A stretch of DNA of 64,000 nt from an uncultured Bacteroidota bacterium (GTDB lineage Bacteria > Bacteroidota > Bacteroidia > Flavobacteriales > Flavobacteriaceae). The position numbers and the translations under genes are program-made. The notes beneath the pieces are model-generated. The model was not told where the DNA came from. It worked only from the letters and a program-made list of their open reading frames with translations, and searched no databases. This document shows positions 43,112-60,561 of the stretch, in pieces; the stretch's first letter is position 1; each line of letters starts with the position of its first letter. The stretch is taken from the NCBI GenBank assembly GCA_902635965.1, contig CACPQA010000003.1, positions 1 to 64,000 of the forward strand, in the 5' to 3' direction.

Positions 43112-43198
43112 TATTTTTGCCTCATTGATACCGTTAATGCTTCTTTAAAGCCTTAAAATCTTTCGCCTCCCATTCAAATGTGGGAGGTTTTTTTTTAA
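43112..43198 (+). ncRNA. Candidate small RNA in a divergent intergenic region
   Basis: A TAnnTTTG-like -7 element (TATTTTTG, 43112-43119) is followed about 50 bases later by a strong intrinsic terminator (stem CCTCCCA/TGGGAGG, 43166-43187, then a 9-T run). No ORF lies between. A transcript of about 70 nt would result. The -33 element is poor, so the call is tentative. Confidence 0.4.
43166..43196 (+). terminator. Strong intrinsic terminator
   Basis: Stem CCTCCCA/TGGGAGG with an 8-base loop and nine T bases. No gene on the plus strand ends upstream, which is why I propose a small RNA. Confidence 0.85.
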
Positions 43199-43235: not shown

Positions 43236-43265
43236 TTTGGAGTTTTGTAAGAATACTTATATTTG
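43236..43265 (+). promoter_or_regulatory. Bacteroidota-type promoter of the large surface lipoprotein gene
   Basis: TTTG at 43236-43239, an 18-base spacer, and TATATTTG at 43258-43265 match the Bacteroidota -33/-7 consensus (TTTG, TAnnTTTG) well. The leader of about 55 bases after it is A-rich, as in highly translated genes of this phylum. Confidence 0.8.
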
Positions 43266-43326
43266 CACTCATATGTTAATCATAAAAATTTAAAAAAAAG
43301 CATTATTAACTAATTATTTATCTAAA

Positions 43327-45558
43327 ATGAAAAAAGGTTTATTAAGTCTTTTGGCGGTTGCACTAACGGTTGTTGGCTGTCAAAATTACGATGATCAGTT
43401 CGACGAACTGTCTGATCAAATTACTGCACTTTCGGCGACTGTTCAAGGTTTATCCACTGTTGCAGATCAAATTACTGCGTTGCAAAACACAGTAAACGGT
43501 TTGGAATTAACTTTAGGTGCTGATATTGCAACTATTAAAACTGCTGTTGATGCGTTATCTACTGCGTTAGATGATGTAGCTACCGCTGCTGATTTAGCCA
43601 CAATATCTTCTACCTTATCAAATGTACAAGCTGATGTTAAAGAACTTTTAGCTGCAAACGCAGTTATTAATCAAAATATTACTATTAACAATGTAGCTAC
43701 TTTAGAATATGTAGAGTCACTTATTAGTACTGACGCTGATGATCCTAATGTAATTGTTAATGGAGAAATTACTGTTAGCGTTGATGACGCAGATTTTAAT
43801 GCTGAGCATCTACCAAGAATAGCTGCAGTAACTAATAAATTTGCAACATCTCTTAAAACTGTAACTATATCTAATACTTATTCTCCGACTGGAGAGATTT
43901 TATCGTTTGATGCGTTAGCATTTGTTGATAATGATCTTATAATTACTGGAGCAACTGATTTAGTTGATGGTGATGCTACCAATGATGTTTTAAGAACTGT
44001 AACAGGTGATTTAACAGTTGCTAGTATTAAAGGCGATATAGATTTAAGCCTTCTTACATCTGCTGACGATATTACATTACCTACTGGAGCTGGTGTTACT
44101 GCTCTCAAAATGGGTTCTGTAACCGCTGCTTCTCTTTCATCTGCTGGTGAAGCTAAAGGACATTTAAACCTAGTAAGTGCAACTATTGTAGATGGAGGTA
44201 AGTCTAAAGTATCAAGTATTGTTGCTGCATATGCTACAGACATAGATATAACAACAGCTGCTACTTTAACAGTGAATGCGATTAGAGCTGCCACTATTGA
44301 TATAGAAGGAACATCCTTAACAGGAGATTTAAGTATAACTGCTTCAGGAACTACAATTGTTCATGTTGATAAGGTTACTTCCGTTGGTGGATCAATAACT
44401 ACAAGTGATTTAGCTGAACTACACTTAGGAAAGTTGAGTTCTACAAACACTATGACTTCTGGTGCTAAAGTAATGGATCTTAGTTCTCTTGCTTCTCAAG
44501 GTGCTGTAAATTCAACAGGCCAAGCAGCTATCAGAGGTGCTTCTATTGTTTTAACTAAAATAACAAATTTCAATGCACCTAAGCTTGATGTTACAGGCGT
44601 TGTTTCTGTTGTTGCTGCTACTGATATTACAATACATGACTTTAGTGTAGGAGGAACTGGTGCCTTTGGTACTACTGTTTATTCCCTTGCAGCTAAAAAC
44701 CTTACTGTAAATGGACTTGCTGCTACGAATAGTATGACATTTACTAAGACTGCATCAGTATTTCCAAAGCTAGTTGATTTAAATGTTACTGGTGATGCGG
44801 CTACTTCAAGCCCTTACATTACCACACAAACTAATGCTGTTTCAGTAACTTCTGATGTTTTAACTACACTAACTACAGGAGGTACTATTGATATGGTTAG
44901 TTTACACGGTGCTGCCAAGTTAACGGCTCTTACTACAAGTGGTTATACTAGAGATTTCCAATTGTTTGGTGCATCTATTATAACTAGTGCTGATATAAAT
45001 CACGACCATATTGAAGGATCAGACGCGGCTAGGTTTGAGATTGTAAATGCATCGAAGATTACTACTGTAGCTCCATCTGCTCTTGACGAAGTAGGTACAG
45101 TTACACTTATAGGTCTACCTAAGATGACTTCATTAAACTTATCGTCTATGAAAACATTACCTATATTGGGTACTTATACTATGACGATTAGTTCTACAGG
45201 ACTTACTGGATCTTATGGTATTGCTTCAGAAGCTACAACAACTACCCAGGCATATAATGAAAAGATTTATTCAAATGACTTGTTAACATTGAAGCCATTA
45301 ATGGATCTATCTGCCGCTTCAGCTGTTGTAACTTACGCTTTTGCAGGTGACATTATCTCAGCTGTTGCTACTAGAACATTTGATGCCGACGGTGTACCAG
45401 GAGCATTATCTACAGCAGGATCTGCAAATTCTACGGCTACTCTAGTTACGTTAATGCACTTGAATAGTCCGTTCCTTAATTCTGCTTCACTTTTAGCTAC
45501 TCACACGGCACCACGAACTTTCCTAGATAGTCAGTTCTCTGCCGTCAATGCTGAATAA
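43327..45558 (+). CDS. Large Thr/Ala/Ser-rich surface lipoprotein with coiled-coil base
   Basis: The 743-residue protein has a lipoprotein signal (VVGC, Cys18). Residues about 25-110 form a heptad-like coiled coil (DELSDQITALSATVQGLSTVADQITALQNTV). The remaining ~600 residues are strings of short beta strands (LTVNAI, TIDIEG, LSITASG, VVSVVAATDITIHD) that look like a beta-helix or a stacked-strand rod, with almost no Cys, Trp or charged clusters. Codon use favours T-ending codons (GCT, ACT, GTT), unlike its neighbours, consistent with high expression. The strong promoter and terminator make it a separate unit. It may be an abundant surface or S-layer-like protein, but this is inference. Confidence 0.85.
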   Translation: MKKGLLSLLAVALTVVGCQNYDDQFDELSDQITALSATVQGLSTVADQITALQNTVNGLELTLGADIATIKTAVDALSTALDDVATAADLATISSTLSNVQADVKELLAANAVINQNITINNVATLEYVESLISTDADDPNVIVNGEITVSVDDADFNAEHLPRIAAVTNKFATSLKTVTISNTYSPTGEILSFDALAFVDNDLIITGATDLVDGDATNDVLRTVTGDLTVASIKGDIDLSLLTSADDITLPTGAGVTALKMGSVTAASLSSAGEAKGHLNLVSATIVDGGKSKVSSIVAAYATDIDITTAATLTVNAIRAATIDIEGTSLTGDLSITASGTTIVHVDKVTSVGGSITTSDLAELHLGKLSSTNTMTSGAKVMDLSSLASQGAVNSTGQAAIRGASIVLTKITNFNAPKLDVTGVVSVVAATDITIHDFSVGGTGAFGTTVYSLAAKNLTVNGLAATNSMTFTKTASVFPKLVDLNVTGDAATSSPYITTQTNAVSVTSDVLTTLTTGGTIDMVSLHGAAKLTALTTSGYTRDFQLFGASIITSADINHDHIEGSDAARFEIVNASKITTVAPSALDEVGTVTLIGLPKMTSLNLSSMKTLPILGTYTMTISSTGLTGSYGIASEATTTTQAYNEKIYSNDLLTLKPLMDLSAASAVVTYAFAGDIISAVATRTFDADGVPGALSTAGSANSTATLVTLMHLNSPFLNSASLLATHTAPRTFLDSQFSAVNAE

Positions 45559-45577: not shown

Positions 45578-45612
45578 TTGAAAAACCCTCGTAATACGAG
45601 GGTTTTTTTTAT
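45578..45612 (+). terminator. Intrinsic terminator of the surface lipoprotein gene
   Basis: Stem AAACCCTCG/CGAGGGTTT with a TAATA loop and a T-run directly after the 43327-45558 gene. Confidence 0.93.
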
Positions 45613-45638: not shown

Positions 45639-47984
45639 ATGCAATACATACGAAGAGATAATAAACAGTTACCCAGTTTCATATTTATAATCTTATATCT
45701 TATCACAGGATCCTTATCAAATTTCGGTGCAATTGACATTCTTGCACCTCAATGGATTTATTTAGGCAGTATAAATATTTTGGTTTGCTTTTACATTCTG
45801 TACGCTAGTGAAGACTTTAAGGAACCTTTTTACAAACTTTTTTCTTCATTATATATTTACGTATACATCTTTTACTTCGTTTGGAACGCATTTTCATATT
45901 TTTATGCGGTTAATCCAACCGAAACGTTAATAAACCTCCCACGAATCGGAAATTCTTTTTTTGCTGTTTTTTTCTGTACTTTACTGATATACAATATTCC
46001 CAATAGATTTAATTTCGTCTGTGGAATCTTTTTCACATTTCTGCTAGCCGAAATGATTTCTTATTATTATGATTTATCTGTAGTATACCCTGAACAAGGA
46101 TTAAGAGTGATAGCTATCAAAGGATTTGCAGGGAATAAAAATATTACAGCGGCTTCAATTGCTTTCAAAATACCATTTGCTATTTACTTTTTTTTGAATT
46201 CAAAGAAAGCTTTTTTTAAAGTCACCTCATTTCTTATATTAACGGCTGGTATATTTGCAATTTCTTTGATTGAAGCAAGGGCAGCAATCTTAAGTACCAT
46301 TATCGTTTTTCTACTATTAATTTTGTTTTATGTGTACAAACTAGTCTATGAAAAAAATGAGATTAATAAAGTTTCAAAAAAAATACTTATGATTATTTCT
46401 CCTTATTTAATTGCATTTTTATTAAATATTTTTGCAACAAATCTTGCTATTGAGAAGGGTAGGAAGGTGGCAATAACTGATACTATTGGTAAAATATCAT
46501 TTACTGAGGAATCTTCAAATGGAAGGTTTGGCTATTGGGGTGATGCATGGGAATATATAAAAGAGAATCCCATTTTCGCATCTGGACTTGGTAATTGGAA
46601 AATTGAATCAATTGACAAGGGTAAAGAACATATTTCGGGATACACGGTTCCATATCACGCACATAATGATTTTATTCATGTCTTCGCCGAAACCGGCATT
46701 CTTGGAGGCTTATCTTACTTACTATTATTTATTTTTGTAACATACTACGTTTTCCAAATTTTAAAAATCGAATATGAAGATAAAAGTGAATTTTCATTGC
46801 AAAAGTTTATTTTAATATTACCCTTAATTGTCTATGGTGTTGATGCGTCATTAAATTTTCCCGTAGCTAGGCCACTAATGCAGTCATCTCTAGCTATTTA
46901 TTTAGGACTAATTTTGGCAATATACTTAAACCTAAAAAAGACTAATAAAAACTCAAGTAGTATTAAATCAATTAGGATAGTGTTTAGTCTAATATTTTTT
47001 TTGCTTATCCCAGGGATTGCTATTCACATAATCTCATACAAATCTTTGACTCAACAAGGAAGACTGTTATATGAATTTAATAACGCAAGTTATACTTATA
47101 CAAGAGCCGAACTAGATCAAATTTCACATGATTTTCCAAACTTGACTGAGACAGCAATGCCCATTAAGGCAATGAAAGCCAGATACTATTGGTTAGCTGG
47201 TAACAAAGAGGAGGCTTATAAAATGGTAGAATTAGGTTCTCGAGACAACCCAAAAATTCATTTTGCAGATAATTTAAAAGCTCAGTTTTTTATAGAAGAG
47301 AACAAAATAGATAGTTCTTATTACTATGCTAAAAAAGCTTTTGATGGTCTTCCAAATAACATGCCTCACTACGATATATACATGAGGAATCTTGCTTACA
47401 AAAGAGATGCTCCTGCGATTAATGAAGCTTTTGACCGGGTAAGAAAACTTGGAGGTGATACCAAGTCGATATGGACTATTTATTTAAGAACTCTAGCACT
47501 AACTAGAAGCCTTGGTGATCCTTTTTCAATGGCAAAAGCTCAAGAAGGTTTTAATTTGTACCCAACAGACGAAAATATATTTTCGCTTTACAGAATTTTA
47601 ACCTATGGACAACAAAGGATAAATGAAGCAGATAATCTAATTAGCAAAGCAAAGTCTTCGTTTGATAATCAATTATATTCTGATGCTGCTAATCTTTATG
47701 TTCAAGCATTTGATAAGGATCCATTGCGTTACTCAATTGCAATGAATGCAGCTTTTTCTTATTATAATTTAAACGATTATGTCAGTGCTCTTAAGTATTT
47801 CAGCCTATCCAGTCAATCTAAAAACCCTGAAGTAGTTGAAAAGGGTATGAGGTACAAAGCACTATCACTCATTGGTTTGGGAGATAATAATGCGGCATGT
47901 GCTCAATACATTCAAATATTAAACAAATTTCCCAAAAGAATGTATCAACAGGAATTCAATAAATACTGTAGAAGAAATAATTAA
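45639..47984 (+). CDS. O-antigen ligase/polymerase (Wzy_C-type) with C-terminal TPR repeats
   Basis: The 781-residue protein has about twelve transmembrane helices in residues 1-440, with the large periplasmic loop that bears the ligase signature HAHNDFIHVFAETGILGG. The C-terminal 280 residues are helical repeats of the TPR kind (WLAGNKEEAYKMVELG, YYAKKAFDGLPNN, LYVQAFDKDPLRYSIAMNAAFSYYNLNDY). Such proteins join or polymerise surface polysaccharide at the periplasmic face of the inner membrane. The gene overlaps the next one by 1 base (TAATG), so it is coupled to UDP-glucose dehydrogenase. Confidence 0.92.
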   Translation: MQYIRRDNKQLPSFIFIILYLITGSLSNFGAIDILAPQWIYLGSINILVCFYILYASEDFKEPFYKLFSSLYIYVYIFYFVWNAFSYFYAVNPTETLINLPRIGNSFFAVFFCTLLIYNIPNRFNFVCGIFFTFLLAEMISYYYDLSVVYPEQGLRVIAIKGFAGNKNITAASIAFKIPFAIYFFLNSKKAFFKVTSFLILTAGIFAISLIEARAAILSTIIVFLLLILFYVYKLVYEKNEINKVSKKILMIISPYLIAFLLNIFATNLAIEKGRKVAITDTIGKISFTEESSNGRFGYWGDAWEYIKENPIFASGLGNWKIESIDKGKEHISGYTVPYHAHNDFIHVFAETGILGGLSYLLLFIFVTYYVFQILKIEYEDKSEFSLQKFILILPLIVYGVDASLNFPVARPLMQSSLAIYLGLILAIYLNLKKTNKNSSSIKSIRIVFSLIFFLLIPGIAIHIISYKSLTQQGRLLYEFNNASYTYTRAELDQISHDFPNLTETAMPIKAMKARYYWLAGNKEEAYKMVELGSRDNPKIHFADNLKAQFFIEENKIDSSYYYAKKAFDGLPNNMPHYDIYMRNLAYKRDAPAINEAFDRVRKLGGDTKSIWTIYLRTLALTRSLGDPFSMAKAQEGFNLYPTDENIFSLYRILTYGQQRINEADNLISKAKSSFDNQLYSDAANLYVQAFDKDPLRYSIAMNAAFSYYNLNDYVSALKYFSLSSQSKNPEVVEKGMRYKALSLIGLGDNNAACAQYIQILNKFPKRMYQQEFNKYCRRNN

Positions 47985-49381
47985 TGAGAATACAGGAAAT
48001 CTGTTGTATAGGTGCGGGTTTTGTAGGTGGTCCAACTATGACTGTAATTGCTCACGAATGTCCTGAAGTTAGAGTGACAGTGGTTGATACTAACATTCAA
48101 AAAATTAAAGCTTGGAATAGTCCCAACCTAGACAAGTTACCTGTGTATGAGCCTGGTTTGAAAGATTTAGTTGCAAAAACAAGAAATAAAAATCTTTTTT
48201 TCAGTACTGATATTGATGATGCTATAATCAAGGCTCAAATGATATTTTTGGCTGTAAACACTCCTACTAAAAAAGATGGGGAAGGTAAAGGTTATGCTGC
48301 TGATTTGACAAATATTGTAAAATGTTCTGAGCGAATTGCTAAAGTCTCTACTAAAAGCAAAATTATAGTTGAAAAATCTACTCTACCAGTTAGAACTGCA
48401 GAAAAAATTAAGCAAGTTTTAAAATCTAATTCAACTGAATTAACATTCGAAGTCTTGTCAAATCCGGAATTTTTAGCAGAAGGAACCGCAATTCAGGATT
48501 TATACAAATCTGATAGAGTTTTGATTGGTTCTGACAATACAAAAAGAGGTAGGAAAGCGTTAAATTCATTAATTTCTTTATATGAAAAATGGATACCTAA
48601 AAATAAAATATTAAAAACAAGTGTTTGGTCTGCAGAATTGTCAAAATTGGCATCTAACGCAATGCTTGCACAGAGAATATCCTCTATTAATAGCCTTTCA
48701 GCACTATGTGAAAAATCAGGAGCTTCAATTGAAGAAGTTTCAAAAGCTGTAGGAATGGATAAGAGAATTGGAAGTCATTTTTTAAATGTTTCTCCTGGTT
48801 TTGGTGGAAGCTGTTTCCAAAAAGACATACTAAACTTGGTTTACCTTTGCAGAAATTATGGATTGCACGAAGTAGCTAGTTATTGGGAAGGGGTTGTAAG
48901 AATTAATGATTATCAAAAAAGTAGGTTTTCCAATAAAGTAATGGAGTATTTCGACAATATAATAATTAACAAACGTATAACTATCTTAGGCTGGTCATTT
49001 AAAAAAAATACAAATGATAGTAGAGAGTCCGCATCAATTTATATTTGTAGAGACTTATTAATTAAGGGAGCTATAATTCATATATATGATCCAATGGTTC
49101 CTCCACAAAGAGTTATATCTGACATAGTAAATTTGATGGAATCTGAAAATTTCGAAGAAAATTCATTGAAAGAATTAATTTCTAAAGTTTATGTATATAC
49201 TAACATAAATGATGCGGTTAAGTCAACTGAAGCTATTCTAATTCTTACAGAATGGGACGAATTTAAAGGGTATGACTGGAAAAAATTTATCCAAACATCG
49301 AAAATAAATGTTCATTTATTTGATAGTAGAAACATAATAGATAAGTCATTTGCTCAAAACCTGTATTCTATTGGTAGCTAA
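47984..49381 (+). CDS. ugd: UDP-glucose 6-dehydrogenase
   Basis: The 465-residue enzyme has the N-terminal NAD motif (CIGAGFVGGPTMTVIA), the longer eukaryote-like form of the family, the SNPEFLAEGTAI segment and the catalytic Cys motif GFGGSCFQKD. It oxidises UDP-glucose to UDP-glucuronate, a building block of surface polysaccharides. It follows the O-antigen ligase with a 1-base overlap and lies just before the nonulosonic acid operon, whose own promoter begins 40 bases downstream. Confidence 0.96.
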   Translation: MRIQEICCIGAGFVGGPTMTVIAHECPEVRVTVVDTNIQKIKAWNSPNLDKLPVYEPGLKDLVAKTRNKNLFFSTDIDDAIIKAQMIFLAVNTPTKKDGEGKGYAADLTNIVKCSERIAKVSTKSKIIVEKSTLPVRTAEKIKQVLKSNSTELTFEVLSNPEFLAEGTAIQDLYKSDRVLIGSDNTKRGRKALNSLISLYEKWIPKNKILKTSVWSAELSKLASNAMLAQRISSINSLSALCEKSGASIEEVSKAVGMDKRIGSHFLNVSPGFGGSCFQKDILNLVYLCRNYGLHEVASYWEGVVRINDYQKSRFSNKVMEYFDNIIINKRITILGWSFKKNTNDSRESASIYICRDLLIKGAIIHIYDPMVPPQRVISDIVNLMESENFEENSLKELISKVYVYTNINDAVKSTEAILILTEWDEFKGYDWKKFIQTSKINVHLFDSRNIIDKSFAQNLYSIGS

Positions 49382-49420
49382 TAATAAGTAAAAAAAGTAC
49401 TAATTATTAAATAATTTATA

Positions 49421-49428
49421 TATCTTTG
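49421..49428 (+). promoter_or_regulatory. -7 promoter element upstream of the nonulosonic acid operon
   Basis: TATCTTTG matches TAnnTTTG exactly. It also contains the TTG that the ORF track uses as start of the next gene, which argues that the true start is the ATG at 49453. The -33 side has no clear TTG at the right distance. Confidence 0.6.
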
Positions 49429-49452
49429 CCTAAGATAATAATTAGTAAAGTA

Positions 49453-49962
49453 ATGCTTAACAAGTTAATTACTTCAAAAACCCGGTTGCGCCTACTTATA
49501 AAATTTTTTATAAATCAGGCCAACCGTGGTTATTTAAATGGCCTTGCCTCAGAATTCAATGAGTCTACAAATTCAATTAGAAAAGAACTCAATCATCTAT
49601 CAGAAGCTGGTTATTTAGAAAAATACAAGGACAACAATAAAATTGCATACAAAGCAAACGTTAAACACCCTATGTTTGAAATTCTTCAGAAGGTTGTATT
49701 CAAACATTTAGGTCTTGAGGACATTGTAGAACACGTTCTTGCTCAAATGGGGAATGTAGAAAAAATTCACTTAATCGGAGACTATGCTAAAGGTCTTGAT
49801 ACAGGATTAATTGAAGTTTTGTTAATCGGTAGCAGGTTAAATACAGATTACATAAGTAATTTAGAAAATAAAGTTGGAAATTTAATTGAAAGAAAAGTTC
49901 AATTTATTATAAGTAACAGGAAATCATCTGAACAACAGTCTATCTTGTTGTTTGAACGTTAG
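49453..49962 (+). CDS. Winged-helix regulator with nucleotidyltransferase-like C-terminal part
   Basis: I choose the ATG at 49453 because the track's TTG (49426) sits inside a TATCTTTG promoter element; this gives 169 residues. The N-terminal half is a winged helix of the ArsR type (TSKTRLRLLIKFF, NESTNSIRKELNHLSEAGYLEKY). The second half (EKIHLIGDYAKGLDTGLIEVLLIGSR) resembles a small nucleotidyltransferase fold as in other regulators that precede Bacteroidota polysaccharide operons. The role is probably transcriptional control of the downstream operon, 6 bases away from pseB. Confidence 0.82.
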   Translation: MLNKLITSKTRLRLLIKFFINQANRGYLNGLASEFNESTNSIRKELNHLSEAGYLEKYKDNNKIAYKANVKHPMFEILQKVVFKHLGLEDIVEHVLAQMGNVEKIHLIGDYAKGLDTGLIEVLLIGSRLNTDYISNLENKVGNLIERKVQFIISNRKSSEQQSILLFER

Positions 49963-49968
49963 ATTATT

Positions 49969-50967
49969 ATGTTAAGGCAAAGCACAATTCTTATTACCGG
50001 CGGTACAGGATCTTTTGGGAAGAAATTTGTTCAAATGACACTAAAAAAATATAATCCAAAATCTATAATTATCTTTTCTAGGGATGAAATGAAACAATGG
50101 GGAATGGCAGAAAAATACATTGGTGATGAAAGGGTAAAATTCATTATAGGTGATGTAAGAGACAAAGAGCGTATTTCAAGATCTCTTGATGGAGTAGATT
50201 TTGTAGTTCATGCAGCTGCCACTAAAATTGTTCCCACTGCTGAATACAACCCTTCTGAATGTGTAAAGACAAATATTATTGGAGCTATGAATGTAATTGA
50301 TGCATGTACTGATAAAAATGTAAGAAAAACGGTCGCATTATCAACAGATAAAGCAAGTAACCCTATAAACCTTTATGGAGCCACAAAATTAGCTTCTGAT
50401 AAGTTATTTGTAGCTGGCAGTTCCCAACAGGGAGGAAATAAAACTCTTTTTTCTGTAGTACGCTATGGTAATGTAATGGGTTCTAGAGGATCGGTAATTC
50501 CTTTTTTCCTAAATAAACGAAATGAGGGTGTTTTACCTATTACAGACAAGCGAATGACTAGATTTATGATTTCTTTAGAAGAGGCTGTAAAATTAGTTTG
50601 GAATGCTTTTGAAGACATGCTAGGAGGTGAAATTTATGTAAAGAAGATTCCTTCAATGAATATAGTTGACATTGCGAAAGCAGTAGCACCTAGAGCAAAA
50701 CACAAGGTCATTGGAATTAGACCTGGAGAAAAACTCCATGAACAAATGATTGGTTATGAAGACGCGAAACACACCTTTGAATACGATGAATATTTTAAGA
50801 TTTTACCAGCCATTCATAATTGGTCAAATGACCCAAAAAGGATAAAAAACGGAAAGGCTGTTCCAGAAAAGTTTGTTTATAGTTCAGATAATAATTCAAA
50901 ATGGATGAGTTCTGCACAATTATCTAAATGGATTGAGAATAATGAACAAAAAATTGAATTAATTTAA
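49969..50967 (+). CDS. pseB: UDP-N-acetylglucosamine 4,6-dehydratase (inverting), PseB
   Basis: The 332-residue SDR enzyme has ITGGTGSFGKKFV at the N-terminus, the STDKASNPINLYGATKLASDK active-site region (Tyr-x-x-x-Lys) and the PseB-specific tail. PseB converts UDP-GlcNAc to UDP-2-acetamido-2,6-dideoxy-beta-L-arabino-hex-4-ulose, the first step of pseudaminic acid synthesis. It is the first biosynthetic gene of the operon and is followed directly by the reductase/PseC fusion with no gap. Confidence 0.94.
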   Translation: MLRQSTILITGGTGSFGKKFVQMTLKKYNPKSIIIFSRDEMKQWGMAEKYIGDERVKFIIGDVRDKERISRSLDGVDFVVHAAATKIVPTAEYNPSECVKTNIIGAMNVIDACTDKNVRKTVALSTDKASNPINLYGATKLASDKLFVAGSSQQGGNKTLFSVVRYGNVMGSRGSVIPFFLNKRNEGVLPITDKRMTRFMISLEEAVKLVWNAFEDMLGGEIYVKKIPSMNIVDIAKAVAPRAKHKVIGIRPGEKLHEQMIGYEDAKHTFEYDEYFKILPAIHNWSNDPKRIKNGKAVPEKFVYSSDNNSKWMSSAQLSKWIENNEQKIELI

Positions 50968-53034
50968 ATGAAAAATATAGTATTTGCTGGAGGTACAAGC
51001 TTATTAGCTCAGTGTTGGATTAGAGATGAAAATCCGAATTACAATTTTATACTTGGCATTCATAATCGTAAACCAGATCATAAAAAATGCAAAACGTATG
51101 TTTTTGACTATGATGACACATCTAAACTTTACTCTCAACTAAAATCTTTAAAAACAGACGTTTTGATCAACTGCATTGGCTTTACCAGTGTGGAGGAATG
51201 CGAAAAAAATAAAGAAAAAGCCTTTCAGTCTAATGCTATATTGGCAAAAGAAATTTCTAAAGTCTGTAAAGAGTTATCAGTCAAAATGGTCCATATATCA
51301 ACGGACCATCTTTTTAACGGCACAAGTGCTTTCGCAGACGAAAAAACTCCATTAGATCCAGTAAATAATTACGCTGAGTCAAAAGGAAAAGGTGAAAACT
51401 TTATATTAGATGAAAACCCTGATGCAATCATAATTAGAACAAATTTTTTTGGATGGGGTCCAAATTACAGGAGATCTTTCTCTGACAAAATAATAAAATG
51501 TTTGGAAAATAATGAAACTATAAATTTATTTCGTGATGTTTTTTTCACACCTGTTTCAGTCAAAACACTCAGAGATAATATTTATAACCTCATAAAAAAA
51601 AATGCAAAAGGAATTTTTAATGTGTGTTCCAATGAAAGAATAACTAAGTATCAATTTGGACTTATGTTATCAAAAGCATTTGGTTATTCCACTCAGTTAA
51701 TTAATCCAGTAAGTATAGAAGATATTCCAAATTTGACAGCGAGACCAAAAGATATGAGTTTAAGTAATCATAAAGTTTGCTCATACTTGGGGAATATTAT
51801 GCCATCTATTGAAAAACAGATTTATGAATTAAAGAGAGAAAAAGATTTTCATAAAGTAAGACATTTGATTCCCTATGGAAGACAAGATGTAAATGAAAAG
51901 GACATTGATAAGGTTGTTAGTGTACTACGTTCAGATTATGTAACACAGGGGCCTGTAATAGAAAAATTCGAGCGAAGGGTTGCTAGTTATTGTGAAGCTA
52001 AATTTGCCTATGCCTGTAATAGTGCTACCAGCGCTTTGCATGTTGCTTGTTTGGCTCTTGGAGTTAAAAAAGGGGACTTAGTTTGGACAAGTCCTATTTC
52101 ATTTGTTGCCTCATCTAACTGTGCTCTTTATTGTGGTGCGGATGTTGATTTTGTTGATATTGATCCATCAACATACAATATGTCAACTTCAAGTTTAGAA
52201 AAAAAACTTATTAAAGCCAAAAAAAACGACAATCTACCAAAGGTTGTAATTCCTGTTCATTTAGCAGGTCAAAGTTGTGAAATGGAAAAAATTCACGAGC
52301 TTTCAAAAAAATATAATTTTAAAATCATTGAGGATGCTTCTCACGCAATTGGGGCTAAATATAAGGGTAAATCTGTTGGGAGTTGTTCTTTTAGTGATAT
52401 TTCGGTATTCAGTTTTCATCCAGTTAAAATAATTACTACTTGTGAAGGAGGTATGTGTTTGACAAATAATAGGGAATTAGGTAATTTAATAAGTCGTTAT
52501 AGAAGTCACGGAATCACAAGACAACCTTCAGAAATGACCAAAACTCCTGACGGATCATGGTATTATGAACAACTTAACTTAGGATTAAATTATAGGATGA
52601 ATGACGTCCAGGCTGCTTTGGGTTTAAGTCAAATGGATCGTCTTGAAGAATTTATTGATAAGCGAAGAGATATTGCAAACCGTTACAACGAAATGTTAGA
52701 AAAGTCTGTGGTTCAAATTCCAAATCAGCATCCAGATACTTTATCATCATATCATCTTTACATAATAAGACTAAGAAGAAACAAAAAAATTACTCACAAA
52801 CAATTGTTTGAAAAATTTAGATTGGCTGGTGTTTTAGTTAACATTCATTACATACCTATATACAGACAACCTTATTATAAAGCATTAGGATTTGATAAAG
52901 ATGGATTTGAAGAAGCGGAAAAATATTACAATGAAGCAATTAGTATTCCAATTTTTCCCGGATTAACAGTTAAAGAACAAAAAAAGGTGGTTGATTTAAT
53001 AGAGGAACCCTTTGGGTTTCAAAATTTATTTTAG
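50968..53034 (+). CDS. pseC: Fusion of an RmlD-like reductase and PseC-type aminotransferase
   Basis: The 688-residue protein has two domains. Residues 1-290 are an extended SDR of the RmlD/dTDP-4-dehydrorhamnose reductase type (GGTSLLAQ, Ser111 in HISTDHLF, Tyr135-x-x-x-Lys139 in NNYAESKGK, TNFFGWG). Residues about 300-688 are a DegT/PseC sugar aminotransferase: IPYGRQDVNEKDID, NSATSALHVA, EDASHAIGA and the PLP-binding Lys487 in FHPVKIITT. The second domain performs the PseC transamination of the PseB product. The first suggests an added ketoreduction or epimerisation. Fused forms are unusual. The domain boundary lies about residues 290-300. Confidence 0.9.
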   Translation: MKNIVFAGGTSLLAQCWIRDENPNYNFILGIHNRKPDHKKCKTYVFDYDDTSKLYSQLKSLKTDVLINCIGFTSVEECEKNKEKAFQSNAILAKEISKVCKELSVKMVHISTDHLFNGTSAFADEKTPLDPVNNYAESKGKGENFILDENPDAIIIRTNFFGWGPNYRRSFSDKIIKCLENNETINLFRDVFFTPVSVKTLRDNIYNLIKKNAKGIFNVCSNERITKYQFGLMLSKAFGYSTQLINPVSIEDIPNLTARPKDMSLSNHKVCSYLGNIMPSIEKQIYELKREKDFHKVRHLIPYGRQDVNEKDIDKVVSVLRSDYVTQGPVIEKFERRVASYCEAKFAYACNSATSALHVACLALGVKKGDLVWTSPISFVASSNCALYCGADVDFVDIDPSTYNMSTSSLEKKLIKAKKNDNLPKVVIPVHLAGQSCEMEKIHELSKKYNFKIIEDASHAIGAKYKGKSVGSCSFSDISVFSFHPVKIITTCEGGMCLTNNRELGNLISRYRSHGITRQPSEMTKTPDGSWYYEQLNLGLNYRMNDVQAALGLSQMDRLEEFIDKRRDIANRYNEMLEKSVVQIPNQHPDTLSSYHLYIIRLRRNKKITHKQLFEKFRLAGVLVNIHYIPIYRQPYYKALGFDKDGFEEAEKYYNEAISIPIFPGLTVKEQKKVVDLIEEPFGFQNLF

Positions 53035-53038
53035 TTTC

Positions 53039-53593
53039 ATGCGTTTAAAGAAAATTAAAGATTTATCAATCTTAGAGTCTGAAAGGCTAGTTTTAAAACC
53101 TTTGTCAAAGTCTTTTTTATCTATGGAATATGTGAATTGGATGAATGATCCAAAAGTGATCAGATTTATCGAGTCAGGCGGAAATTACAATATTAAAAAA
53201 CTAGAAATTTTTCTAAATGAAACTGAAAAAAACCCAAAATATTTTTGGGCTATTGTAATTAAAAAAGGAGGAGCCCATATAGGTAACATAAAGATTGATC
53301 CAATAAACTTTAAACATCTTCATGGAGAGTATGGAATTTTAATTGGAAACAAAAAGTTTTGGGGACTTGGTTATGCAAAAGAGGCTTCAAATCTGGTTAT
53401 CAAACATTGTTTTGATGATCTTAATTTAAAAAAAATTATTCTTGGAGTTAATGCTGAAAACAAAGTAGCTGTAAAATTGTATAAAACTTTGGGTTTTGTT
53501 CAAGAGGGAAGACTTAAAGATCACTTAAATTTTGAGGGTAAATATGTAGACCTATTAAGATTATCAATCTTTAACACAAAATCAGAAAAATGA
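53039..53593 (+). CDS. pseH: GNAT-family N-acetyltransferase, PseH-like
   Basis: The ATG at 53039 gives 184 residues and is 4 bases after the previous stop; the track start at 53012 would lie inside pseC. The protein is a GNAT enzyme of the RimJ/RimL type: LESERLVLKPLSKSFLSMEYVNWMNDP, HLHGEYGILIG and the acetyl-CoA motif FWGLGYAKEA. In pseudaminic acid clusters a GNAT acetylates the 4-amino group (PseH), and position after PseC supports that. It overlaps the next gene by 4 bases. Confidence 0.88.
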   Translation: MRLKKIKDLSILESERLVLKPLSKSFLSMEYVNWMNDPKVIRFIESGGNYNIKKLEIFLNETEKNPKYFWAIVIKKGGAHIGNIKIDPINFKHLHGEYGILIGNKKFWGLGYAKEASNLVIKHCFDDLNLKKIILGVNAENKVAVKLYKTLGFVQEGRLKDHLNFEGKYVDLLRLSIFNTKSEK

Positions 53594-54432
53594 AATTCAT
53601 TTTAGGTTCAGTGCAATGGGGTTTAAATTATGGAATATCAAATTCTACTGGTAAACCAAATAGGTATGAGGTTGAAGAAATAATCAATTTTGCAAATAAG
53701 AAAAATATATATTTCGTTGATACAGCATATTTATATGGTGATTCAGAAAAAAGAGTTGGCAGTTTGTGTTCTAATAAATTTAAAATAATTACAAAAATTA
53801 ATCCTAGCAGAAATGAATTGTCAATTAAAAAATTGGTTGATAGGTCATTGAAAAGGTTGAATAGAAAAAAAGTTTATGGATGTTTATTTCATAATGTTAA
53901 CTTTCTAATTGATAATCCACAATTATGGTCCGAATTATTAATTGAAAAGGGAAAGGGGAAAATTCAAAAAATTGGATGTTCCTTTTATGAACCTAATGAA
54001 TTAGAGGAAATATTATCATTGAAGATATTACCAGACATAGTGCAAATACCGTTCAGTATTCTTGACCGAAAATTTGAAAAACATTTGTCTGAGTTAAAAA
54101 AGAAAAAAATTGAAATCCATGCGAGGTCGATTTTTCTTCAGGGATTATATTTTTTAGATGCGAGCTCACTGTCAAAAAAATTTATACCAATTAAAGAGCC
54201 ATTGAATAATATTGAACAATTATGTAAAGAAAATTCCATAAGCAAATTACATCTTTGTTTAGCCTATGTATCGAGTAATCCTTTTGTTGATTACATTGTC
54301 GTTGGAGTCCAGAACAAAGACCAGCTTAATCAAATTGTTAGCAGTAAATTTAAATTATCCGAAACTTTAAAAAAAAAAATTTCAAGTATTCAGGTTAATG
54401 ATAGTAAAATGTTAAATCCCGCTAAATGGTAA
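53590..54432 (+). CDS. Aldo/keto reductase in the nonulosonic acid operon
   Basis: The 280-residue protein is a short aldo/keto reductase: SVQWGLNYGISN, the DTAYLYGDSEKRVG motif with Asp and the catalytic Tyr, ITKIN around the Lys, and VGVQNKDQL. Related reductases occur in spore-coat/nonulosonic acid clusters. The substrate is unknown; it may reduce a keto sugar made by PseB or the class III aminotransferase route. It overlaps both neighbours, so it is translated with the operon. Confidence 0.85.
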   Translation: MKFILGSVQWGLNYGISNSTGKPNRYEVEEIINFANKKNIYFVDTAYLYGDSEKRVGSLCSNKFKIITKINPSRNELSIKKLVDRSLKRLNRKKVYGCLFHNVNFLIDNPQLWSELLIEKGKGKIQKIGCSFYEPNELEEILSLKILPDIVQIPFSILDRKFEKHLSELKKKKIEIHARSIFLQGLYFLDASSLSKKFIPIKEPLNNIEQLCKENSISKLHLCLAYVSSNPFVDYIVVGVQNKDQLNQIVSSKFKLSETLKKKISSIQVNDSKMLNPAKW

Positions 54433-55202
54433 AACAAAAAAACAAAGTAATTATAATTACTCAAGCTAGAGTAGGAAGCAAAAGATTCCACTCAAAAATA
54501 ACGAAACCAATAGGAAATGAAACGGTGCTTTCTATTCATTTAAAAAGATTGTTGAAATCAAAACTTGCAAATAAAATTATAGTTGCAACAACATTTGAGA
54601 AAGGCGTAAGTAGAATTATTAATATTGCAAAAAAATGTCACGTAGAATATTTTCAAGGTTCAACTAACGATGTTCTAGACAGATATTATCAAGCTGCAAA
54701 ACTATATCGTCCAGAATACATTGTACGCGTTACAAGTGACTGTCCATTAATTGACCCTAAATTAGTAGACAAATTAATTGGTTTTATACTGAAAAATAAA
54801 TGTGACTATGTGTCGAATATCTTAGTACCAAATTATCCAGATGGGCAAGATATTGAAGTTTTTAAATTCGAAGCATTAAAAAGAGCACATGAGAAAGCAG
54901 AGCTTAATTTGGACAGAGAACATGTAACTTCATATATTGAAAATAACTCTACCTTCCGTGGTATAGAAACCTTCAAATCAAAAATGTACCCTTCAATTGC
55001 GAAATATGAAAACGTAAGAATGACAATTGACCACAAAGATGATCATAAGGCAATAGATTTTATAATATCAAAACTCGGTATAAATAAAAATTGGGTTACT
55101 TATGCAGAATTTATTATTAATAATCCACAAATGTTTTCAAATCAAAATTATATTAGAAACGAATCTTACATTAAATCTGTAAAAGATCAAAATTATGGGT
55201 AA
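54426..55202 (+). CDS. pseF: SpsF/PseF-type cytidylyltransferase
   Basis: The 258-residue protein is a nucleotidyltransferase of the SpsF family: IITQARVGSKRFHSK at the N-terminus, then IIVATTF, SGSTNDVLDRYYQAA-like FQGSTNDVLDRYYQA and RVTSDCPLIDPK. In other nonulosonic acid clusters this family activates the sugar with CTP. It takes the PseF role here, although it is closer to SpsF than to NeuA. It overlaps the previous gene by 7 bases and the next by 8. Confidence 0.85.
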   Translation: MVKQKNKVIIITQARVGSKRFHSKITKPIGNETVLSIHLKRLLKSKLANKIIVATTFEKGVSRIINIAKKCHVEYFQGSTNDVLDRYYQAAKLYRPEYIVRVTSDCPLIDPKLVDKLIGFILKNKCDYVSNILVPNYPDGQDIEVFKFEALKRAHEKAELNLDREHVTSYIENNSTFRGIETFKSKMYPSIAKYENVRMTIDHKDDHKAIDFIISKLGINKNWVTYAEFIINNPQMFSNQNYIRNESYIKSVKDQNYG

Positions 55203-56499
55203 AGGACAAGAATTATATAAAAAGGGGAAAAAATTAATACCAGGAGGCACTATGCTCCTATCAAAAAGACCTGAAATGTTTTTGCCTGAAAAATGGCCGT
55301 CTTATTTCTCCAAAGCTAAGGGTTGTGAAATTTGGGATCTAGACAATCGAAAATATACCGATATGTCCATAATGGGTGTTGGAACAAACTCTTTGGGATA
55401 TGCACATAAAGATGTGGACAAAGCAGTAGGAAGAATAATTTCAATGGGAAACATGAGTACATTTAATTGCCCTGAAGAAGTCAAATTAGCAGAAAAATTA
55501 ATTGAAATTAATCCATGGGCTGACATGGTGCGATTCGCGAGAACTGGTGGTGAAGCTAATGCTATCGCTGTTAGAATTGCTAGAGCAGCGTCGGGTAAAG
55601 ATGGAGTAGCGATATGTGGTTATCATGGTTGGCATGACTGGTATCTTTCAGCAAATCATAATTTAGGGAATGATCTTTCAGAGCATTTGTTGCCCGGACT
55701 TAACCCGTTAGGTGTTCCTAAAAATCTCTCAAATACAGTTTTCCCGTTTCATTATAATAACTTTGATGAATTATTAAAAATCGTCGAAAAAAATAATATC
55801 GGAGTTATAAAAATGGAAGTCGTAAGAAATTTTGGTCCTAAAAATGATTTTTTAGTTAAGGTTAAAAATTTAGCTATAAAGAAAAAAATAGTGTTAATTT
55901 TTGATGAATGTACTTCGGGATTTAGAGAAACATTTGGAGGTATTTTCAAAAAATTCAACGTTGAGCCAGATTTAGTGATGTTTGGTAAAACACTAGGTAA
56001 CGGCTACGCTATAACCGCTGTAGTTGGCAAAAAAGAAGTTATGGAGGCAGCTCAAAATACATTCATCAGTAGTACTTTTTGGACAGAAAGAATTGGTCCT
56101 ACAGCTGCTTTAAAAACACTCGAGACTATGGAAAAGATTAAATCTTGGGAATTAATTACCAATTTAGGAAAAAAGGTAAGAAAGGGTTGGGATGACCTGG
56201 CTAATAATAATGGATTAAAAATTATAATTTCTGGAATTCCAGCTATTAGTAGTTATAGTTTTTCAAATAATAACTTAAAATATAAAACTTATGTAACCCA
56301 AGAAATGTTAAAAAAAGGTTTTTTAGCTAGCACAGATTTTTATTCTTGTATAGCACACAAAGAATCTCATTTAGACAATTATTTTGATCATTTGGGAGGT
56401 ATATTTTCAATAATTTCTAAATGTGAGAAGGATCAACTAAATATTGACGACTTACTCGAAGGTCCTGTATGTCACAATGGTTTTTACAGGTTAAACTAA
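55195..56499 (+). CDS. Class III PLP-dependent aminotransferase (glutamate-1-semialdehyde aminomutase-like)
   Basis: The 434-residue protein is a fold-type I class III enzyme: LIPGGTMLLSKRP, MSIMGVGTNSLGYAH, RTGGEANAIAVRIARAA, ICGYHGWHDWYL, IFDECTSGFR and the PLP Lys in MFGKTLGNGY. HemL-like proteins of this kind in surface polysaccharide clusters are not the haem enzyme; the presence of the sugar operon suggests that it acts on a sugar or a side-chain precursor. The actual substrate is unknown. It overlaps the cytidylyltransferase gene by 8 bases. Confidence 0.88.
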   Translation: MGKGQELYKKGKKLIPGGTMLLSKRPEMFLPEKWPSYFSKAKGCEIWDLDNRKYTDMSIMGVGTNSLGYAHKDVDKAVGRIISMGNMSTFNCPEEVKLAEKLIEINPWADMVRFARTGGEANAIAVRIARAASGKDGVAICGYHGWHDWYLSANHNLGNDLSEHLLPGLNPLGVPKNLSNTVFPFHYNNFDELLKIVEKNNIGVIKMEVVRNFGPKNDFLVKVKNLAIKKKIVLIFDECTSGFRETFGGIFKKFNVEPDLVMFGKTLGNGYAITAVVGKKEVMEAAQNTFISSTFWTERIGPTAALKTLETMEKIKSWELITNLGKKVRKGWDDLANNNGLKIIISGIPAISSYSFSNNNLKYKTYVTQEMLKKGFLASTDFYSCIAHKESHLDNYFDHLGGIFSIISKCEKDQLNIDDLLEGPVCHNGFYRLN

Positions 56500-56547
56500 T
56501 AACCAAGTCAAGTAGTCTAAGGGACATAGATTTTTTAAAAGAACAAA

Positions 56548-57510
56548 ATGAAAATTTATTTTTATCCAGAATATTCTAAAGTTTCAGGACAAGGTCATCT
56601 AAAAAGGCTAATGGCTTTAAATGAGTATGTATGTGAAAATTTTTCTACTTCTTTTATTTTCAAGACTGAAATCCCAAAAGATTTTAAATATGATTTTCTG
56701 TTATTACCAAATAGTAGCAATTATAAAAGAGATATAGATTATCTAAAAAATGAAATCATTAGTGACTCTGTGTTAGTATTGGACGGATACATTTTTCATT
56801 CAAGTTTTCAAGAGCAAATCAAAAAAAGGACCTTGTTTAAATTAGTTTATATTGACGATCTTGGGGGTCACTTTCCGTTTGCAGATGTTGTAGTTAACCA
56901 TGCACCTGGAGTAAAAAAAACAGACTATCATGTAAATCCCAAAACAAAGTTGTTGCTAGGGTTAGATTATTTGTTGTTAAGAGAGGCTTTTTTTAAAAAA
57001 AATAGTATCATCCCGAGCATTCAATTTAAGTCCGTATTTGTTTGTTTTGGCGGTTGTGATACGGAAAATTTTAGCAAAACTATTTCTGAAGAATTAGTAA
57101 AATTACCCAAAGTAAAAAGAATAAATTTAGTATTTGGGGATCAATATCCTTTTTCAAAAAAATGGGTATCAGATAAAAAAATAAAAGTATTAGAAAATCT
57201 AAGTGCAGACAAGGTGAAACATTATATGAAAAAAAGTAATTTGATAATAGTACCTTCAAGCACGTTGGTTTTAGAGAGCTTATGTATAGGCAGGCCAATA
57301 ATTACAATAAAAACTAGTAAAAATCAGAATTTTATCTTTAAAGGATTAAAAAAATATAAGCACGTTTATAGATTTCAAGAATATAATTCTAAAACCAAGA
57401 AACTATTATCTCAAGTCGTTTTAAAGTATTTGACAGACAAAAACTTTGAATATGAGGTCATTAAGTTTGATTCAAGAAAGAAATACAATAAGATTTTTCA
57501 ATCATTTTAA
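56548..57510 (+). CDS. pseG: UDP-sugar hydrolase PseG-like
   Basis: The 320-residue protein has a GT-B-type fold as in PseG: YSKVSGQGHLKR (the G-x-G-H-x-x-R motif), LVLDGYIF, DLGGHFPFADVVVNHAPG, CFGGCDTENFSK and IIVPSSTLVLESLCIGRP. PseG removes UDP from UDP-2,4-diacetamido-2,4,6-trideoxy-beta-L-altrose. It sits directly before the synthase gene (11 bases). It starts 48 bases after the class III aminotransferase stop, the largest gap inside the operon. Confidence 0.85.
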   Translation: MKIYFYPEYSKVSGQGHLKRLMALNEYVCENFSTSFIFKTEIPKDFKYDFLLLPNSSNYKRDIDYLKNEIISDSVLVLDGYIFHSSFQEQIKKRTLFKLVYIDDLGGHFPFADVVVNHAPGVKKTDYHVNPKTKLLLGLDYLLLREAFFKKNSIIPSIQFKSVFVCFGGCDTENFSKTISEELVKLPKVKRINLVFGDQYPFSKKWVSDKKIKVLENLSADKVKHYMKKSNLIIVPSSTLVLESLCIGRPIITIKTSKNQNFIFKGLKKYKHVYRFQEYNSKTKKLLSQVVLKYLTDKNFEYEVIKFDSRKKYNKIFQSF

Positions 57511-57521
57511 AATTTTAAATT

Positions 57522-58541
57522 ATGTTTCCAAAAAACAAAACATTTATAGCTGCCGAAATTGGAATAAATCACAATGGTGACATGAAATTAGCCAAAGAGA
57601 TGATCAAAATGGCAAAAGAAAGTGGAGCAGATGCAGTAAAATTTCAAAACTATAAAACTGAGGACTTTATTTTAAACAAAGAGATCAAATATAAGTATAT
57701 GTCGCAAGGGAAATTAAAAGAAGAATATCAATTCGAAATGTTTAAACGATACGAATTAAATTTTACACAATTGCAAGACCTAAAGAGTTTCAGCGACGAA
57801 CTCGGAATAGTTTTTTTTAGTACTCCAACAGGAATTTCCGGAATAAATGAACTCTTAAAGTTAAATGTTAAATTTCTCAAAAATGGATCAGATTTTATCC
57901 AAAACTTACCTTTAATCAAAGAAATGGGAAAAACTGCTCTCCCTTGTATTTTGTCTACTGGCATGTCGACTCTTTCCCACATAGACGAGGCCGTAAATGC
58001 CTTTGAAAGTGGTGGAGGAAAAGAAATGGTAATTCTTCACTGTGTTTCCCAATATCCTACTCCAAATAACGAAGTTAATCTTAGAAAAATTAATTCTTTA
58101 AAACTTGCCTTTGGTTATCCAGTAGGCTTTTCAGATCATACGTATGGATCAACTGCTGCTTTGGGCGCAGTCGCTCTTGGTGCATGTTTTATTGAAAAGC
58201 ATTTTACGTTGTCTCATGATCTTCCTGGTCCTGATCATAGATTTTCGTCAACACCTGAAGAATTTTTAGAATTAACCACTAAAATCAGGTTACTTGAAGA
58301 TTCTCTTGGAGAATCGAGAATAGAACCTACAAATAAAGAAAAACTAAACGCAAAAAGTTTTCAGCTATCGTGCGTTGCAAAAACAAATATTAAAAGTGGA
58401 TCAAAAATCAAGTCAAGCCACATTTCTTTTTCAAGACCTGGGTCAGGCTTGTCACCAAAAATGTATAGTTATTTAATAGGTAAAATTCTAGTTAAGGATA
58501 AAATTAAAGGTGAAATTTTTAGGATCAGTGATTTAAAATAA
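57522..58541 (+). CDS. pseI: N-acetylneuraminate/pseudaminate synthase family (NeuB/PseI)
   Basis: The 339-residue enzyme has the NeuB TIM-barrel (AAEIGINHNGD, DAVKFQNYKTEDF, STGMSTLSHIDEAV, HCVSQYPTP, GFSDHTYGS, EKHFTLSHDLPGPDHRFS) and a C-terminal SAF/antifreeze-like domain (IKSGSKIKSSHISFSRPGSGLSP). It condenses a 6-deoxyhexosamine with phosphoenolpyruvate into a nonulosonic acid. Upstream genes argue for pseudaminic acid; the PGPDH motif is also common in legionaminate/sialate synthases, so the exact product is uncertain. It ends 1 base into the next start. Confidence 0.9.
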   Translation: MFPKNKTFIAAEIGINHNGDMKLAKEMIKMAKESGADAVKFQNYKTEDFILNKEIKYKYMSQGKLKEEYQFEMFKRYELNFTQLQDLKSFSDELGIVFFSTPTGISGINELLKLNVKFLKNGSDFIQNLPLIKEMGKTALPCILSTGMSTLSHIDEAVNAFESGGGKEMVILHCVSQYPTPNNEVNLRKINSLKLAFGYPVGFSDHTYGSTAALGAVALGACFIEKHFTLSHDLPGPDHRFSSTPEEFLELTTKIRLLEDSLGESRIEPTNKEKLNAKSFQLSCVAKTNIKSGSKIKSSHISFSRPGSGLSPKMYSYLIGKILVKDKIKGEIFRISDLK

Positions 58542-59890
58542 TGAAAAAAGAAAAAAAGATAATCATAATAGGCGGTGGATTTAAGGGTTTAATAGCTGCT
58601 TTAAAACTATCTAATAAAGGACATAATGTTAATATTATTGAAGCCTCAAAAAATATTGGAGGTTATTTAAATAGTCCTCTTTGGAATAAAATCACCATAG
58701 ATTTAGGATGTCATTTATTTATCAATGAAGATGATAATTCTACTGGTTTTATATTGTCAATGTTAAAGAACGATTACATGAAAGTAGATGTCAATTATGC
58801 ATCCTTCTTTAATAATAAAAAAACAGACAACATTGCTATTCCAGACTTTAGTTCAATTCCTAATGCAACTAAAAGGAAAATCCAAAAAGATTTGTTAAAT
58901 ATAAACAGGAAAAAAATAGAAGAAAAATCTTTAATGGACTATTACATCAACAGGTATGGAGATGATATTTTACCGAGTATTGACTCTTGTATATTAAAAT
59001 CACATCTTATAAAATCAAATTCTTTAGATATCATATCAAAAAATTTATTGCCTTTCAATAGAATAAAAATTTTTCCTGAAAAACAATCTGTTTCTTTGAA
59101 GCTAAATAAGGGTTTAGATGAAATTATTGCTGTAAAATATAAAAACCTAAAGGAAATTAAAAATGATACTAAAAAATCAGAATTTAATTTTAGGGAATAT
59201 TACCCAAAAAAAAATGGATTGAAATTTCTTCTGAATAAGATTATAGAACGTTTAAAAAAATCCAATGTTAATTTAGTTTTAGATAACAGAATTAAAAGTT
59301 TTTTATCAGAAAATAATAAAAAATATATTATAACGGATAAAAGTAAGTATGAGTATGATTATTTGTATTGGTCAGCACCCCAATATTTAATTCCAAAAAC
59401 CTTCAATTTTGAAATTGAAGTCGAAAAATTTGTTCACAGTGTTCCATATGTATTAATTTATTTTTTAGCACCTAAAAAATTTGTATCTAAATATACTTAT
59501 GTACACAATTACAATTTGAGTTCAAAATGCTTTAGAGTTTCTATTCAATCAAATTATGCATCAAATGGAGTTCCTAAAGACTTGGCACTGATTTGTTGCG
59601 AAATTCCTACTTGCAAAAGCAAGAGAATATGGAAAAATCCAAAGTTTTATGTAGATGAAATCTGGAATGAACTTTTAATTATGGATTTAGTATCATGTAA
59701 AAAATATAATAATTATATGTTTTTTTCAATTCCTTCAGCGTATAAATTACCCCTTTGTGGATATTCAGATATTTTAAATGAAGCGATTGAAAAAACAAAA
59801 AAGTATAATTTAATTGGTGGTAAAAGTTGGGAATATTCAAAAAACGACATTATGAAAAAAATTGATGAGGATTTAAACTTTCTTTTATGA
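58541..59890 (+). CDS. FAD/NAD(P)-dependent amine-oxidase-like oxidoreductase
   Basis: The 449-residue protein begins IIIIGGGFKGLIAALKLSNKGHNVNIIEAS, a Rossmann dinucleotide-binding motif with an acidic end, and continues in a protoporphyrinogen/amine oxidase-like fold (ASKNIGGYLNSP, LGCHLFI, KNGLKFLLNKI, YEYDYLYWSAP). In sugar operons, similar enzymes oxidise amino sugars or generate keto sugars. The substrate is unknown. It starts on the last base of the synthase stop (TAATG) and overlaps the methyltransferase gene by 4 bases. Confidence 0.78.
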   Translation: MKKEKKIIIIGGGFKGLIAALKLSNKGHNVNIIEASKNIGGYLNSPLWNKITIDLGCHLFINEDDNSTGFILSMLKNDYMKVDVNYASFFNNKKTDNIAIPDFSSIPNATKRKIQKDLLNINRKKIEEKSLMDYYINRYGDDILPSIDSCILKSHLIKSNSLDIISKNLLPFNRIKIFPEKQSVSLKLNKGLDEIIAVKYKNLKEIKNDTKKSEFNFREYYPKKNGLKFLLNKIIERLKKSNVNLVLDNRIKSFLSENNKKYIITDKSKYEYDYLYWSAPQYLIPKTFNFEIEVEKFVHSVPYVLIYFLAPKKFVSKYTYVHNYNLSSKCFRVSIQSNYASNGVPKDLALICCEIPTCKSKRIWKNPKFYVDEIWNELLIMDLVSCKKYNNYMFFSIPSAYKLPLCGYSDILNEAIEKTKKYNLIGGKSWEYSKNDIMKKIDEDLNFLL

Positions 59891-60561
59891 ACATAAAAAA
59901 TACATCTTGGGATAGAATTTTTAGACATAAGGAGCCAAGTAAGTATCCATTCGATAATGTTGTGTCATTTTTTTTCAATAATGTACCAAAAGAAAAGCCA
60001 ATAAGAGAAATTAACATTTTAGAAGTGGGATGCGGAGGTGCAAATAATTTACTATTTATGGCTAAAGAAGGGGCAAATGTATTCGGAATCGATTCAAGTG
60101 AAATTGCGATCAATACTGCTAAAAAAAGATTTATTAAAGAAAATTTAAAAGGTAATTTTATTCACGCTGATTTTAGAAAAATCTCATATCCAGATAGTTT
60201 TTTTGATTTAATTATTGATAGATGTGCTATTACATGTATCGATAAAACAAACTCAAAATTAGTTTTTTCAGAAATAAAAAGAGTATTGAAAAAAAATGGG
60301 AAATTCTTTTTCAATACTTATTGTAAAACTCACACATCACACATAGGCGGCAGAGTTTTATCAAATGGTATAACAACAGAGATACAAACAGGAACATTGG
60401 TCGGAAATGGTAATTTAAGTTTTTTTGATAAAGATGAAATTAAAAACCAATTTGCTCATCCTTGGGAAATAATTTCATTGAAAAACAAAAAAATTAAAGA
60501 TTATTGTATTAAAAATTCGATTCATTCTGAATGGGAAGTAATTATTAAATTGACGGAATGA
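59887..60561 (+). CDS. Class I SAM-dependent methyltransferase
   Basis: The 224-residue protein has a clear motif I (NILEVGCGGANNLLF), post-I acidic residue (VFGIDSSE), then IHADFRKISYPDSFFDLIIDRCA and KRVLKKNGKFFF. This is a small-molecule methyltransferase without further family signature. Its position in the operon suggests methylation of a nonulosonic acid or precursor sugar. It overlaps both neighbours by 4 bases. Confidence 0.88.
   Translation: MNIKNTSWDRIFRHKEPSKYPFDNVVSFFFNNVPKEKPIREINILEVGCGGANNLLFMAKEGANVFGIDSSEIAINTAKKRFIKENLKGNFIHADFRKISYPDSFFDLIIDRCAITCIDKTNSKLVFSEIKRVLKKNGKFFFNTYCKTHTSHIGGRVLSNGITTEIQTGTLVGNGNLSFFDKDEIKNQFAHPWEIISLKNKKIKDYCIKNSIHSEWEVIIKLTE

Follow-up and report, generated by a model that had tools for sequence, protein, structure and literature searches.

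Within the window, the whole 64,000-nucleotide stretch of DNA that was analysed, a gene for a lipoprotein with a predicted rod-like architecture is followed by a partner gene of the Wzy_C superfamily and by a cluster of surface polysaccharide genes (Table 1). The rod gene is present as a single copy in the source genome (a 1.77-Mb assembly of 39 contigs, estimated to be 85% complete). Its product is a bacterial lipoprotein according to its lipobox (MKKGLLSLLAVALTVVGC, VVGC with Cys18), this residue being the sole cysteine of the protein, with none elsewhere in the mature chain. Threonine (14.8%), alanine (13.1%), and serine (10.2%) contents agree with the sequence-only reading, which had described a Thr/Ala/Ser-rich, Cys-poor lipoprotein. 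The "very large" size given there is relative, being the window protein of 743 residues, whereas full-length homologues range from ~710 to 1061 residues. Hairpin terminators flank the gene on both sides, the downstream one as strong as had been claimed, and this supports an isolated transcription unit.

Table 1 Features of the rod lipoprotein locus, in window coordinates
Feature	Position	Strand	Basis
Terminator-like hairpin and T run upstream of the promoter	43165..43188	+	-16 kcal/mol, z -4.3
-33 element TTTG, Bacteroidota housekeeping promoter	43236..43239	+	Sequence; kept in 12/12 same-class relatives
-7 element TATATTTG, 18-bp spacer	43258..43265	+	Sequence; kept in 12/12 same-class relatives
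A/T-rich leader	43266..43326	+	Same-class relatives share its GTTAATC ... GCATTATTAA blocks
Rod lipoprotein gene (743 aa, ATG start)	43327..45558	+	Homologues found
Signal peptide MKKGLLSLLAVALTVVG	43327..43377	+	Sequence; nearly fixed across the rod family
Lipidated Cys18 and acidic motif QNYDDQF, which may direct surface export	43378..43401	+	Sequence, family comparison
Predicted coiled-coil stalk, residues 22-109	43390..43653	+	AlphaFold2; profile matches are coiled-coil proteins
Predicted beta-solenoid rod, residues ~112-648	43660..45270	+	AlphaFold2; nearest fold is of receptor-L-domain type
C-terminal tail, residues 672-743, probably disordered	45340..45555	+	AlphaFold2, pLDDT ~24-43
Intrinsic terminator	45580..45608	+	-16.9 kcal/mol, z = -6.5
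Partner gene: Wzy_C (O-antigen ligase superfamily) membrane domain and C-terminal TPRs, 781 aa	45639..47984	+	PF04932 E 1.3e-18; conserved adjacency
Surface polysaccharide cluster including UDP-sugar dehydrogenase, CMP-sugar synthetase, and NeuB-type sialic/nonulosonic acid synthase	47984..62036	+	

Predicted fold and the family of rod proteins

The N-terminal coiled coil and the beta-strand rod anticipated from the sequence were supported by AlphaFold2, whose model has a helix spanning residues 22-109, then a beta-solenoid up to residue ~648, and finally a tail that is probably disordered. The pLDDT of the solenoid lies mostly between 80 and 96 as far as residue ~610 and drops beyond. Moreover, the model of a distant relative of 1000 residues presents the same stalk-plus-solenoid plan with extra C-terminal domains. 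A fold search of the PDB gave no structural match with E < 1e-3; the match to the fold of the S-layer protein RsaA is insignificant (E 0.009, TM 0.14) and was not taken as evidence. In the viral library, the best fold match is a receptor-L-domain protein of Tupanvirus (E 1e-3, probability 0.99), although with a TM-score of only 0.21. The likeness to receptor L-domain and LRR solenoids, including the BspA-like proteins, would be a resemblance of fold only, being the corresponding Pfam LRR and L-domain models without a match in the window protein at E up to 1 and in 22 family members at E up to 0.01. Also, no C-terminal type IX sorting domain (NCBIfam, E up to 1), no peptidoglycan-binding domain (Pfam, NCBIfam), and no YadA-type C-terminal membrane anchor of trimeric autotransporter adhesins (Pfam) were found, the rod protein having a lipid anchor instead of the latter. 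S-layer proteins assemble by themselves into a two-dimensional lattice and are very abundant, and the S-layer-like character considered in the sequence-only reading gains no positive support from the sorting-domain search or from the RsaA match.

Sequence searches of Pfam, NCBIfam, and the PDB gave no convincing relative, the weak matches being generic coiled coils, and for these curated libraries the earlier statement that there is no homologous family stands. However, it fails outside them: a scan of 84,980 species genomes, in which CQNYDDQF was one seed, gave 65 homologous loci, nearly all of marine Flavobacteriaceae according to the record titles, and these form a clear, uncurated family. 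A profile of the N terminus is present in 15 of 301 Flavobacteriaceae genomes, all of them of ≤2.7 Mb. Judged by sequence, the rod protein family is undescribed, and its members belong mainly to ocean flavobacteria with small genomes.

The N terminus is almost fixed, with residues 1-25 hardly varying among the family. The invariance of CQNYDDQF is partly an artefact because the octapeptide was a search seed; C-x-x-YDD-x-F is also kept in unseeded relatives. The whole rod protein is ~26-37% identical to that of the window outside its genus, and among genus mates the identity is 67-77% for the rod, 68-78% for the ligase, 57-66% for the UDP-sugar dehydrogenase, and 89-92% for the upstream SSF transporter. 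A 2.7-Mb flavobacterial genome (G284, loci L110-L116) contains several copies of the CKNYDDRF type, four of them of ~1070-1130 residues and three within 15 kb, with no ligase neighbours. A phage origin of the rod gene was discarded, as no match was obtained in phage records. One viral contig carries a rod gene at its very end, followed by an apparent ligase start, and is probably host DNA.

The Wzy_C partner and its neighbourhood

The partner gene belongs to the Wzy_C/O-antigen ligase superfamily, PF04932 being above the cut-off, and its product has a weak match in the PDB to the polysaccharide polymerase/ligase 7TPG (E 0.04). Only Wzy_C and weak TPR matches were detected in it; PglL_A and Wzy_C_2 were not, and a PglL-type general O-oligosaccharyltransferase (O-OTase) was rejected on this basis. 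Of the 45 loci that are complete and have a flank of 2 kb or more, 42 have the Wzy_C gene just downstream of the rod gene, in both of the promoter classes described below, either directly or after one convergent GT4 gene. This GT4 gene is present in 21 of the 23 sigma-54 loci with 3.5 kb of flank. Wzy_C and TPRs are fused in the window and encoded by two separate genes in many long-form loci; at L018, L019, and L025, the single rod gene is followed by a tandem pair of Wzy_C genes.

When the ligase was used as the query in 60 relatives, eight genomes matched, including all six with the rod. Genome G058 has three ligase copies, each beside a rod fragment overlooked by the first search; one of these ligases is 99% identical to that of locus L069, and this genome may be a mixed bin. 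In genome G029, a distant ligase copy has no rod gene beside it.

The presence of surface polysaccharide genes next to the rod gene, already pointed out by the sequence-only reading, was confirmed by the finding of Wzy_C, UDP-sugar dehydrogenase, NeuB, and CMP-sugar synthetase. Because a CMP-sugar synthetase and a NeuB-type synthase are encoded at 54426-58541, the surface glycan probably contains nonulosonic acid. Two other ORFs of the cluster are domain fusions, one of 688 residues joining RmlD-like reductase and DegT aminotransferase domains (50968-53034) and one joining formyltransferase and methyltransferase domains (60558-62036).

Two promoter classes and codon usage

The promoter TTTG-18-TATATTTG, proposed earlier as the gene's own, is present 91 to 62 bp ahead of the ATG. 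Rarity of the pattern alone was dropped as an argument, with 11 copies in the genome versus 7 for the reversed control. The promoter is nonetheless meaningful because 12 of 12 same-class relatives retain TTTG-N18/19-TATATTTG at the same distance from the ATG. The leader that follows has no predicted structure.

A clean split is observed in the 62 classifiable upstream regions, being 13 of the housekeeping type, window included, and 49 of the sigma-54 -24/-12 type, a pattern whose overall frequency across the loci predicts 0.03 occurrences per 200 bp. Thirteen sigma-54-class genomes contain 15 perfect sites TTTGGCAY-N5-TTGC between them, 10 of which correspond by coordinates to the rod gene promoter. 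Upstream of the window copy, where the housekeeping promoter stands, the sigma-54 site TGGCAY-N5-TTGC is absent, and the only such site of the source genome is on contig C12. The tree points to two changes of promoter class, although one change is also possible. Absence of rpoN as the cause of the switch was ruled out, since the gene is present in the genome of the window and in 35 of the 38 genomes tested. The gliding adhesin operon, chaperones, and lipoproteins of Flavobacterium psychrophilum are under sigma-54 control, likewise with -24/-12 promoters before the gliding adhesin and lipoprotein genes (PMC9723704); by contrast, the clade of the window has a housekeeping promoter on the rod gene despite having rpoN. 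The leaders of loci such as L041, L042, L045, and L049-L063 contain, downstream of the sigma-54 site and ahead of the start codon, an inverted repeat that is conserved, ATGAACGTTCAT, and those of another clade contain a GTGCA...TGCAC repeat; both are possible regulator sites.

T-ending codons had been read as a sign of abundance. The bias exists, with a share of 0.56 at four-fold sites, the highest of the 38 window genes (0.44 in ribosomal genes), and the ribosomal codon adaptation index of the rod gene is the second-highest (0.740). However, ribosomal protein genes themselves score only 0.69, no higher than the average, so codon usage is uninformative on expression in this genome, and codon adaptation was abandoned as a proxy. 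Apart from this argument, the sequence-only observation largely holds, and the promoter switch and the conserved ligase partner go beyond it. No literature on the abundance of this family was found. We infer that the rod protein is abundant from the conservation of its promoter and from the near-perfect sites in the sigma-54 class, not from codon usage.

A probable surface coat and the alternative readings

Known export signals of Bacteroidota lipoproteins consist of polar and acidic residues immediately after the lipobox cysteine (PMC5080379), and surface exposure of the rod protein is plausible because QNYDDQF is likewise acidic. The fast divergence of the distal rod also suits surface exposure. 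Moreover, a coat role is probable because the rod gene nearly always adjoins a gene that joins sugar chains to the cell surface, and the protein is probably a main building block of the coat, a major coat protein, in pelagic flavobacteria. On balance we favour an outer-membrane coat lipoprotein that makes up a single surface module together with the Wzy_C-TPR ligase encoded next to it. The lipid on Cys18 would hold the protein to the outer membrane, a stalk formed by the coiled coil would lift the rod, and the beta-solenoid would be the exposed, fast-changing part, whose divergence would fit contact with phage, grazer, or particle. The ligase would handle lipid-linked polysaccharide in the periplasm, with the glycan synthesis genes following it. 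The surface orientation and a functional tie of the rod to the polysaccharide are what we infer here. Against this view, the match of QNYDDQF to the export signals is imperfect, its acids being at +5/+6 when those of the SusD-like proteins of these genomes are mostly at +3/+4 (10 proteins), and the distant lipoprotein subfamily of G284 has no adjacent ligase. It may also be that the two genes adjoin as members of a polysaccharide island and share no mechanism.

This last point leads to a reading that we regard as somewhat unlikely, in which the rod acts on its own as an adhesin or shield, Wzy_C is an ordinary O-antigen or capsule ligase, and both share a surface-gene island with no cooperation. 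The G284 copies fit it, and so does a neighbourhood that is a polysaccharide cluster, also fast-diverging, as seen in the UDP-sugar dehydrogenase. However, the ligase remains the nearest downstream gene across deep divergence and in both promoter classes, even where the other neighbours are different. Much less probable is a lipoprotein that faces the periplasm and serves, in the manner of Lpp or SlpA-type connectors, as a tether or spacer for the outer membrane. Such periplasmic spacers have a lipid anchor and then a long coiled coil, which the rod protein resembles, and the shift of its acidic motif relative to the SusD-like signals would agree with this location. Yet no peptidoglycan-binding domain was found in it, and the divergence of its distal rod argues for the outside.

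It is reasonable to propose that the rod is glycosylated, since the gene of a dedicated O-OTase often neighbours that of its substrate, unlike the genes of general O-OTases (PMC12645811). In this case, Wzy_C-TPR would be the dedicated O-OTase of a rod glycoprotein, and GT4, where present, would start the glycan on undecaprenyl phosphate, a proposal that we consider unlikely. The conserved adjacency, the GT4 gene of the sigma-54 loci, and the NeuB-type sugar genes that follow in the window speak for it. Nonetheless, sequons of the type D(S/T)(A/I/L/V/M/T) are absent from the mature window protein when ~7 are expected from shuffling, and its C terminus is unconserved, without the terminal Ser of TfpO targets. 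Furthermore, Wzy_C alone cannot separate a ligase from an OTase, with PglL_A and Wzy_C_2 undetected. Equally doubtful is a dedicated coat-glycoprotein system of pelagic flavobacteria in which the fast-evolving solenoid lipoprotein would be a specific carrier of surface polysaccharide, to which Wzy_C-TPR attaches the chain, with sigma-54 and housekeeping control switched at the same locus.

The lack of sequons led us to reject the window protein as a substrate of the general Bacteroidota O-glycosylation system; its one D(S/T), versus 13.4 expected, has another third residue. Over 48 members, the dipeptide is at 0.47 of expectation, and it is at 0.55 in the longest ORFs at SusD loci, 0.91 in TonB-receptor neighbours, and 2.18 in DacB-like neighbours. 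The low value at SusD loci led us to discard an avoidance special to the rod family, and the depletion may represent sequon avoidance in some surface proteins.

Type IV pilins with a dedicated O-OTase (TfpO/PilO, TfpM, PglS) likewise have a surface-protein gene beside a single Wzy_C-superfamily transferase gene, although the substrate here would be a beta-solenoid lipoprotein with no conserved C-terminal Ser, and the ligase would carry TPRs. The S-layer proteins TfsA and TfsB of Tannerella are also Bacteroidota surface proteins associated with nonulosonic acid-containing glycans. However, TfsA and TfsB carry a C-terminal sorting domain and are type IX cargo (PMC12175726), whereas the rod protein is an N-terminal lipoprotein.

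Finally, little has been described of the surface that ocean flavobacteria with small genomes expose to phages, grazers, and algae. Proteomics, tomography, and work on phage receptors would gain a concrete target in a coat-protein family whose ligase partner is conserved. The parts worth following are the ligase link and the promoter switch, which at orthologous loci would constitute a natural experiment where a surface gene passes from activator-controlled to housekeeping expression.
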